Shown piece by piece: positions 5,659 to 8,107 of a DNA stretch of 33,053 bases. The DNA is from an uncultured Brachyspira sp. Its GTDB lineage: Bacteria > Spirochaetota > Brachyspiria > Brachyspirales > Brachyspiraceae. Below the pieces are notes generated by a model. That model saw only the letters and a list, made by a program, of their open reading frames with translations. It made no database searches and was not told where the DNA came from. The DNA is taken from assembly GCA_949300355.1 (NCBI GenBank), contig CASGDY010000029.1, positions 1 to 33,053 on the forward strand. The letters are read 5' to 3'. Both the position numbers and the translations under genes were made by a program. Within the stretch, counting starts at the first letter, position 1. Every line of letters starts with the position of its first letter.

Positions 5659-5928
5659 ATGAAAGACTATAAAAAAGAAGCAATAATATTCAAAGCATTC
5701 TGCGATGAAAACAGACTTCAAATATTAGATATGATCAAAAACGATGAAATATGTGCCTGCAAACTTTTGGAAGAATTAAAAATAGTGCAGTCTACATTAT
5801 CTCATCATATGAAAATATTATGTGATGCTGAAGTAGTGATACCAAGAAAAGAAGGCAAATGGACCTATTACAGCATAAACAAAGAAGGTTTTGAAAGAGC
5901 AAAAGAATTACTAAATTACTATATTTAA
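5659..5928 (+). CDS. ArsR/SmtB-family transcriptional repressor
   Basis: Short winged-helix repressor of 89 residues. The recognition-helix region STLSHHMKIL (about 49-58) and the wing RKEGKWTYYSI are typical of ArsR proteins. Just before the recognition helix is EICACKLL, matching the ELCVCDL-type helix of arsenic-sensing ArsR, so Cys33 and Cys35 are likely inducer ligands for As(III) or another soft metal(loid); the third Cys (Cys55) is also a candidate. It starts an apparent operon with a permease 33 bp downstream and three thioredoxin-fold genes, behind an operator-like dyad. The family is secure; the inducer is inferred. Confidence 0.92.
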   Translation: MKDYKKEAIIFKAFCDENRLQILDMIKNDEICACKLLEELKIVQSTLSHHMKILCDAEVVIPRKEGKWTYYSINKEGFERAKELLNYYI

Positions 5929-5961: not shown

Positions 5962-6974
5962 ATGACAATAATAAAATCAATATTCATTTTCATACAAGAT
6001 CAAATCATATCTATGAAATGGCTTAATACTTTAATAGGAAATATATTAAATAATTTTGCATTATCAGAAACAGCTAAAGGAATAATACAATTTTTTATTT
6101 ATGATGTTATAAAAATATTTTTGCTCTATCAGTACTAATATTTTGTATATCATATATTCAATCATTTTTTCCTCCGGAGAGAACTAAAAAAATACTAAGC
6201 AGATTTAAAGGCATATCAGCAAATATATTGGCTGCACTTTTCGGTACTGTTACACCATTTTGCTCATGCTCATCAATACCCCTTTTTATAGGATTTACTT
6301 CTGCAGGAATACCTATATCAATGACTTTTTCATTTTTAATATCATCGCCTCTAGTGGATTTGGCTTCTCTGATACTTTTATCAAGCATATTCGGTATAAA
6401 GATTGCAATTGCTTATGTTGTAGTAGGACTTGTACTTGCAGTTCTTGGAGGTACTTTGATAGGCAAACTTAAAATGGAAAAATATTTAGAAGACTTTATA
6501 AAAAATATAAAAGTAAATAACACTGGATTAGAAATACAAACTATGACAAAAAAAGAAAGATTAATATATTCAAAAGAACAGGTTATAGAAACTATAAAAA
6601 AAGTTTATTTATATATTTTTGTAGGAGTTGGAATTGGAGCTTTCATTCATAATGTTATACCATCTGAATGGATAAATACAATACTAGGAAAAAATAATTG
6701 GTATTCTGTGCCTTTGGCTTCTTTGGTAGGAATTCCAATGTATGCAGATATATTCGGAACTTTACCTATAGCAGAGAGTTTATTTCATAAAGGTGCGGGA
6801 CTTGGCACTATTTTATCATTTATGATGTCAGTTACTGCCTTATCTCTGCCTTCTATTATTATGCTAAAAAAAGCAGTGAAAATGCCTCTTTTAATATTTT
6901 TTGTATTTATAGTAACTTTGGGAATAATTATTATTGGATATTTATTTAATAATTTTTATTTTCTATTTGTATGA
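5962..6974 (+). pseudogene. YraQ/ArsP-family permease (COG0701), frameshifted
   Basis: Multi-spanning permease of the UPF0718/COG0701 family, which includes the organoarsenical exporter ArsP. The key motif TPFCSCSSIPLFIG is intact, as are SSPLVDLAS and the C-terminal half. The frame from the ATG at 5962-5964 runs through IQFFIYDVIKIF but stops at 6136-6138. The continuation LSVLIFCISYIQSFFPPE lies in another frame. The break falls at the T5 run 6118-6122: one extra T would join the halves as IFFALSVLIF and give a 337-residue protein. The frame of the second half has stops upstream at 6075 and 6102, so the break lies between about 6102 and 6138. It may be a sequencing error, a real inactivation, or homopolymer phase variation. 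It sits between the ArsR gene and the thioredoxin-fold genes, suggesting metal(loid) export. Confidence 0.85.
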
Positions 6975-7025: not shown

Positions 7026-7337
7026 ATGTTTTTTAATAATAATAAAAAATCACAATGCAGCTGCGGCGGTTTATGTCAAACATCATCTGAAGAAAATGCA
7101 AGAATAAAAATATTAGGTACAGGCTGTAATAACTGTAAGAAATTAGAAGAAAACACATTAAAAGCTTTGAAAGATATGGGGATTAATTTAAAAGTAGTAC
7201 ATGTTTATGATATAGAAAAAATAGCTGCATACGGAGTAATATCCACACCTAGCTTAGTATTAGACGAAAATGTATTATCTTATGGTAAAGTATTAAATAA
7301 AGATGAAATAATAGAACTATTAAAAGATAAATTGTAA
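7026..7337 (+). CDS. Small thioredoxin-fold protein, paralogue 1 (all-Cys form)
   Basis: A 103-residue protein of the small thioredoxin/glutaredoxin-like family often called redox-active disulfide protein 2. The thioredoxin domain starts at ARIKILGTGCNNCKKLEE, with a CxxC redox motif (CNNC), and later has the cis-Pro loop STPSLVLDE. The short N-terminal tail carries a Cys cluster, CSCGGLC, ahead of the fold. It lies 51 bp after the permease with an AAGGAG ribosome site and is followed by two paralogues in which the tail motif contains an in-frame TGA. This Cys version is therefore the natural reference for reading those TGA codons as selenocysteine. Probably cytoplasmic, acting with the permease; partner unknown. 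Confidence 0.88.
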   Translation: MFFNNNKKSQCSCGGLCQTSSEENARIKILGTGCNNCKKLEENTLKALKDMGINLKVVHVYDIEKIAAYGVISTPSLVLDENVLSYGKVLNKDEIIELLKDKL

Positions 7338-7421: not shown

Positions 7422-7739
7422 ATGGCTATAGAAAAAATACAATTTGGCTGAGGATGTTTGCCTGACCCTCTAGAGGATGAGGGTATAGAAAGAGAAGTAG
7501 AAAAAATACTGCTTTTAGGAAATGATGATGAAAATTCTCTTGATATGCTTGATAACTTAAGAAGAGCTATATTGGATTTAAATCTAGACTTATCCATAAA
7601 ATATACAGACAGTAAAGGAACTATGTCATATTATGGTGTAATGACTTTGCCCGCTCTTATTGTCAATGATGAGCTTATATCCTATGGAGAAGTTTTGGAT
7701 AGGGAAAAAATAGTAAATATTTTAAAAGAAAAATTATAA
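7422..7739 (+). CDS. Predicted selenoprotein, thioredoxin-fold paralogue 2 (CxxC lost)
   Basis: The ATG at 7422-7424 has a perfect GGAGG ribosome site. Codon 10 is TGA (7449-7451) in the context FG-U-GC, and the frame then stays open to 7739, giving 105 residues. Stopping at TGA would leave only 9 residues. The U aligns with the tail Cys of paralogue 1 (CSCG) and with the U of paralogue 3 (CGUG). A hairpin at SECIS distance follows. The C-terminal half (SYYGVMTLPALIVNDELISYGEVL) matches the paralogues closely, but where they have GTGCxxC this protein reads LLLGNDDENSLDML. The thioredoxin active-site cysteines are thus gone and redox chemistry would rest on Sec and the neighbouring Cys. An automated caller would start it falsely at the TTG at 7458. 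Confidence 0.8.
7465..7484 (+). promoter_or_regulatory. Candidate bacterial SECIS hairpin for paralogue 2
   Basis: ACCCTC (7465-7470) pairs with GAGGGT (7479-7484) around the 8-nt loop TAGAGGAT. The loop starts 20 nt after the TGA at 7449-7451, inside the window where bacterial SelB-binding hairpins lie. The stretch uses G/C-rich codons (GAC CCT CTA GAG GAT GAG GGT) uncommon in this AT-rich genome, as expected if RNA pairing constrains it. A U-A pair inside the loop with a bulged U would leave the loop AGAGG. Folding was done by eye. Confidence 0.55.
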
Positions 7740-7765
7740 ATATTAAAATTTTTTAAGGAGATAAC

Positions 7766-8107
7766 ATGTCATTAAAAGATATTTTATTCGGAAAAGGAGG
7801 ATGCGGCTGAGGCCCTTCTATTAATCCCTTCGTTGAAGAGGAAAAAACAAAAGAATCGCCTATAGAGGCAAGAGTAAAAATATTAGGTACAGGCTGTGCT
7901 AATTGTAAAAAGCTAGAAGAAAATACAATAGCTGCCATAGAAGAAGCAAAACTTGATTTAGCTATTAAATATGTAGAAGATATGGCGGAAATAGCTTCTT
8001 ATGGAGTAATGTCAACTCCTGCCCTACTATTAGATGATAAAGTTCTTTCTTATGGTAAAGTATTAAGCAAAGAAGAAATCATTAAAATTCTAAAAGAAAA
8101 TCTATAA
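7766..8107 (+). CDS. Predicted selenoprotein, thioredoxin-fold paralogue 3 (CGUG and CxxC)
   Basis: The ATG at 7766-7768 follows AAGGAG. The frame reads through a TGA at 7808-7810 (codon 15) in GGCG-U-GP and ends at TAA 8105-8107, for 113 residues. Downstream, ARVKILGTGCANCKKLEE and STPALLLDDKVLSYGKVL are almost identical to paralogue 1, so the reading frame after TGA is under protein-level constraint. The C-G-U-G motif aligns with C-S-C-G in paralogue 1. Without Sec insertion only a 14-residue peptide would be made, and no ribosome site or ATG restarts the frame. A SECIS-like hairpin lies 15 nt after the TGA. This paralogue keeps the CANC redox motif, so it may pair an N-terminal selenol/thiol with the thioredoxin disulfide. 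A strong terminator follows at 8133. Confidence 0.85.
7825..7842 (+). promoter_or_regulatory. Candidate bacterial SECIS hairpin for paralogue 3
   Basis: TCC-CTTC (7825-7831) pairs with GAAG-A-GGA (7835-7842), with one bulged A and the apical loop GTT (7832-7834). The loop begins with G followed by U, as in bacterial SECIS loops, and starts 21 nt after the TGA. That is nearly the same distance as in paralogue 2, although the two sequences differ. Folded by eye. Confidence 0.55.

Follow-up and report, generated by a model that had tools for sequence, protein, structure and literature searches.

Predicted selenoproteins with an N-terminal Cys/Sec arm in a probable arsenic-type operon of Brachyspira

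A contig of an uncultured Brachyspira sp. contains two adjacent small genes, each crossed close to its start by an in-frame TGA codon. This raises the question of whether both codons are read as selenocysteine (Sec) and, if so, what a pair of thioredoxin-like selenoproteins would be doing at this locus. The whole stretch of DNA analysed here, called the window, is 33,053 nucleotides long, and the features of interest are collected in Table 1. The genes starting at 7422 and 7766 are referred to below as the first and second genes, and the Cys-containing gene at 7026 as the third paralogue.

Table 1. Features of the gene cluster, in window coordinates
Feature	Position	Strand	Remarks
ArsR/SmtB-family repressor	5659..5928	+	NF033788 82.4 bits (cut-off 55), PF01022; Cys pair in EICACKLL
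ArsP_1-family permease, split (5962-6138, about 6129-6974)	5962..6974	+	PF03773 179.6 bits (gathering score 32.3)
Cys paralogue (T3)	7026..7337	+	C-S-C-G-G-L-C tail and thioredoxin-like domain with CNNC; TIGR00412 92.3 bits
Predicted selenoprotein 1 (Sec.1 type)	7422..7739	+	tail FG-U-GC; thioredoxin fold without CxxC; PF13192 38.6 bits
TGA predicted to be decoded as Sec, codon 10 of the 7422-7739 gene	7449..7451	+	context FG-U-GC
bSECIS-like hairpin, first gene	7465..7484	+	stem ACCCTC/GAGGGT, 8-nt loop
Predicted selenoprotein 2 (Sec.2 type)	7766..8107	+	tail CG-U-GP; thioredoxin-like domain with CANC; TIGR00412 97.9 bits
TGA predicted to be decoded as Sec, codon 15 of the 7766-8107 gene	7808..7810	+	context CG-U-G
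bSECIS-like hairpin, second gene	7825..7841	+	TCCCTTC-GTT-GAAGAGG

In-frame TGA codons and the case for Sec decoding

Both genes begin with an ATG preceded at about 10 nt by a Shine-Dalgarno-like GGAG, so that the ribosome sites described in an earlier note, made from the sequence alone, are indeed present. Reading TGA as Sec gives products of 105 aa for the first gene and 113 aa for the second, with Sec at positions 10 and 15. In the protein alignment, C-S-C of the third paralogue, F-G-U-G-C of the first protein and C-G-U-G of the second share one position, the third paralogue reading C-S-C-G-G at the tail site where the other two proteins carry Sec. The Cys counterpart proposed by the note is therefore found at the aligned position, and Sec is located, as it had also stated, in an N-terminal tail rather than in the CxxC site. 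The CxxC is moreover gone from the thioredoxin domain of the first protein, where GNDDENS is aligned with GTGCxNC. This loss, like the arsR/ArsP/ACR3 surroundings of the cluster, had been overlooked in the note.

The locus was compared across the genomes of 26 Brachyspira species, 24 of which possess the cluster. The TGA codon, in the contexts listed in Table 1 and already reported for the window, occupies the same column in 23/23 genes of the first type and 22/22 genes of the second; it is invariant in all 45, a conservation that places these in-frame TGAs far beyond chance. Some species are without one or two of the three copies, and single copies appear damaged: the first-type gene of G009 (locus L049) is likely truncated late, and the second-type gene of G002 (L043) is likely frameshifted. 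A pairwise, aligned calculation on full-length genes (n=22 and n=21 for the first and second types, respectively) gave pN/pS values of 0.28 and 0.22 on the 3' side of the TGA, which denote purifying selection on the downstream frame and bear out the protein conservation claimed for it. The values on the 5' side, obtained from few codons, are 0.60 and 0.35.

The opposite reading, in which translation truly ends at the TGA and the domain is either translated from an internal start or encoded by decaying genes, is scarcely credible. An internal start is offered in many species by a TTG located 3 codons past the TGA of the first gene, but this codon is replaced by TTA or TCT in others, and in genes of the second type the nearest ATG, GTG or TTG is met 25-58 codons past the TGA, mostly beyond the CxxC. 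The invariance of the TGA and the selection exerted past it speak against this reading as well, as do the hairpins described in the next paragraph and the Cys/Sec exchange observed in the third paralogue.

A hairpin at about 20 nt past each TGA was another element of the note, and both were located, with loops beginning 19-21 nt past the codon. This spacing falls within the usual bacterial range. In the first hairpin, 93.8% of cells are paired, as against 43-66% in slid controls, and two-sided (compensatory) changes are found at 2/6 pairs. Its codons are constrained as well: CTA is used in 17/22 genes though it represents 4.1% of the Leu codons in window genes, and GAG is used in 22/22. The second hairpin shows little sequence variation and its covariation is weak alone (69/500 shuffles), so its support comes from codon constraint, with CCC in 16/21 genes versus 1.7% of the Pro codons in window genes, TTC in 20/21 versus 27%, and GAG in 20/21 versus 20%. 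Stems held by otherwise rare codons, together with the compensatory changes of the first gene, support both hairpins as putative SECIS-like elements.

The machinery needed for such decoding, which the note had proposed to look for, is present in full. The genome from which the window is taken carries selB and tRNA-Sec (over threshold), selA (454.9 bits) directly after the tRNA-Sec gene selC, and selD (350 bits). Since TGA is also the terminator of 3/25 window genes, the genetic code is the standard one, and a code change had been rightly set aside. Two other species (G001 and G003) have neither the cluster nor a true ACR3, yet they keep selB and tRNA-Sec, presumably because of other selenoproteins that sustain Sec decoding in these species. 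On these comparative grounds, which are strong, it is as good as certain that both genes would encode selenoproteins through Sec decoding of UGA. The codon would be read by SelB and tRNA-Sec, aided by the hairpin located just 3' of it.

If the selenoprotein part of the note stands, its description of the pair as uncatalogued does not. These proteins have been known since 2017, when Santesmasses, Mariotti and Guigo identified them first in B. hampsonii and subsequently in every other Brachyspira genome that they examined (PMC5330540). Each time, they reported a cluster of one Cys gene and two Sec genes, whose products combine PF13192 with a short N-terminal extension bearing Cys/Sec, the Sec.1 form being without CXXC. 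A bacterial SECIS was described after both TGAs, and the genes were missed or truncated in the NCBI annotation, the very misannotation that the note had expected. All of these traits are found in the window: PF13192 with a Cys/Sec extension, one Cys and two Sec genes, one Sec form without CXXC, a SECIS-like hairpin past each TGA, and the Sec machinery. A 2026 review (PMC13188914) lists Sec.1 and Sec.2, assigning CxU to the former and UxC to the latter as motifs. In PMC5330540, Sec.1 is the CXXC-less form, which in the window has UxC; the two labels thus seem to be swapped in one of these publications. The present results confirm the published Brachyspira selenoproteins and extend them to 26 species, and the two genes illustrate how gene callers overlook selenoproteins.

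Exchange of Cys and Sec in the third paralogue and in relatives

The alternation of TGA with Cys codons, suggested by the note as a check, is not seen in the first and second gene types, where TGA is fixed, and is found in the third paralogue. This gene encodes a Cys form in 13 species, whereas the four species G002, G012, G015 and G021 have the Sec form (S-C-G-U), and a single Brachyspira cluster can therefore encode up to three selenoproteins. In a tree, in which many forks are open owing to the short length of the proteins, the Cys form of the window is placed inside a nine-species clade, and the sister of this clade is the Sec form of G012 (support 99/97). The well-supported branches force the Cys label to change at least twice. 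Cys and Sec are exchanged within one orthologous position of this paralogue.

Outside Brachyspira, relatives were collected at 75 loci. Their tails are rich in Cys, typically CCCGG-N-C, and no Sec was found in the tails at these 75 loci. An apparent U at two loci (L090 and L130) was rejected, since the reading there had run through sequence located 5' of the true start. Among about 270 other Spirochaetota genomes sampled, and apart from one weak match containing a TGA (G215), no TGA-bearing match covering the tail was obtained. The prevalence of Cys tails outside the genus indicates that Sec took the place of one tail Cys in Brachyspira.

The arsR/ArsP/ACR3 neighborhood

The ArsR-family gene holds the same upstream place in most relatives. 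The ArsP_1 permease that follows it is split in the window, where one base near 6125 is missing by comparison with all six relatives aligned, and is uninterrupted in most other Brachyspira species. The deletion may be a real loss or an assembly error. A true ACR3 above cut-off was detected genome-wide in 14/26 species, within the cluster in 13, while the 14th has it on a contig of its own; the copy of one relative scores 374 bits, over the arsenite-pump cut-off. A genome-wide profile search found no ACR3 in the genome of the window. Because this absence is combined with a permease broken by one base, the strain may have a weaker arsenic function, provided that the break is not an assembly error. 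At the 75 non-Brachyspira loci, many of them on short contigs, a permease is found within 5 kb of the relative in 67, arsR in 68 and acr3 in 18. In one group of species (G011, G014 and G017), other genes separate the permease from the selenoprotein pair, which leaves the cluster partly disrupted. Present there is a conserved 315-aa gene, alone in G014 (locus L054) and accompanied by a transporter-like gene in G011 and G017 (L051 and L057).

It is very probable that the cluster belongs to an arsenic/metalloid-resistance operon. The arsR/ArsP/ACR3 context gives the most likely function, and an arsenic role of the cluster is what we infer. An alternative is that the selenoproteins serve another metal or metalloid (Sb, Cu/Zn, Hg or an organometal) in a system resembling SAO or SO_0444, arsenic being a historical label. 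The permease lends itself to this view: with the SaoE profile NF040736 it scores 92.4 bits in the window and 105 in an intact relative (cut-off 325), and with the SO_0444 Cu/Zn efflux family 107.5 bits, the last two scores being alike and both far below cut-off, so that its substrate is not fixed by sequence. The metal sensed also varies among ArsR-family sensors, and 12/26 species are without a true ACR3. Against this stands the location of ACR3, over the arsenite-pump cut-off where present: of the 14 species having it, 13 carry it inside the cluster. The alternative is considered unlikely.

Possible role of the Cys/Sec arm and comparison with known systems

In AF2 models of both selenoproteins, the thioredoxin fold is predicted with a pLDDT of about 95 and the tail is disordered (below 50). 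The disordered N-terminal arm, C-x-C/U-G, could provide a mobile thiol/selenol ligand capturing trivalent arsenic or an organoarsenical, which the thioredoxin domain would reduce or hand on, through its CxxC where this is kept, ahead of efflux. Sec at the central tail position would allow a faster, tighter capture or exchange. Having no CxxC, the first protein would serve purely as a carrier or partner, with U-G-C as its sole thiol/selenol chemistry. The overall reading, of genuine selenoproteins whose mobile Cys/Sec arm handles trivalent arsenic in an arsenic-type operon, is regarded as reasonably probable.

Whether the arm binds cargo or simply donates electrons is more finely balanced. In the second case, the proteins would be pure redox partners passing electrons to an arsenate reductase, a peroxiredoxin or a membrane carrier, and the tail Sec would be a resolving residue or an electron relay. 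Such a role would agree with the thioredoxin fold, with the CxxC of two of the three paralogues, with the proposal by Castillo and Saier that the family acts as a reductant with ArsC (PMC2963123), and with the redox-gene neighbors in STRING according to PMC5330540. It accounts less well for the first protein, which has lost its CxxC yet retains fold and U-G-C tail throughout the 23 species, and for the steadiest neighbors among the three gene types counted (permease, arsR and acr3), which are the permease and ArsR in 67-68/75 loci. A purely redox role is thus possible, at limited weight. That a paralogue deprived of its CxxC has been retained with its U-G-C arm favors, without proving it, ligand binding rather than plain electron donation, and a cargo-binding arm is considered nearly an even prospect. 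More specifically, and rather doubtfully, Sec-armed thioredoxin-fold proteins, the CxxC-less one included, might use Sec as an arsenic or organoarsenic ligand and act as metallochaperones that pass trivalent arsenicals on to an ArsP/ACR3 exporter, and not as redox enzymes.

Characterized ArsP permeases are exporters of methylarsenite and of organoarsenicals related to it. Organoarsenical export by the ArsP_1 member of the window, if true, would fit intestinal and livestock exposure. An arsenic role, if true, would explain why up to three clustered selenoproteins are devoted to one operon, and would make this selenoprotein family, so far without an explanation, a case in which the part of selenium chemistry in arsenic detoxification can be tested.

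Several known systems can be compared with this cluster. The second and third proteins match the TIGR00412 profile of the MTH895/ArsE family over its cut-off of 62; the first misses it (36.3 bits) and clears the PF13192 cut-off. Among solved structures, MtH895 (PDB 1ilo) is the best relative by sequence, and the CxxC-less protein is nearest to thioredoxins and MtH895, with weak E-values. This family differs from the Brachyspira proteins, in which the N-terminal Cys/Sec arm is extra and the CxxC is missing from the first protein. The SAO system, as presented in PMC13188914, also pairs a thioredoxin-like selenoprotein, SaoT, with an ArsP_1-like efflux permease, SaoE. In that account, however, the Sec of SaoT lies in UxxC, whereas that of the Brachyspira proteins lies in the N-terminal tail. 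Membership in SaoT was rejected, NF040730 giving 13.8 bits for the third paralogue and no score for the first and second proteins (cut-off 65), and membership of the permease in SaoE was rejected on its NF040736 score.

A closer parallel is provided by redox-active disulfide protein 2, found by Castillo and Saier (2010) in other ars operons (PMC2963123), which shares both the family name and the arsenic operon context. Those proteins are Cys forms, usually accompanied by arsC and CcdA, whereas Brachyspira combines Sec with an ArsP_1 permease; unlike the usual operons of that study, the window cluster has no arsC among its identified genes. The closest match is the Brachyspira cluster of PMC5330540, from which that of the window differs in nothing essential. 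In the genomes of that study, one Cys gene always accompanied two Sec genes, whereas here the third gene is a Sec form in four species, and the arsR/ArsP/ACR3 operon was not part of its description. This ArsR/ArsP_1/ACR3 operon context and the Cys/Sec swap of the third copy are what the present analysis adds.
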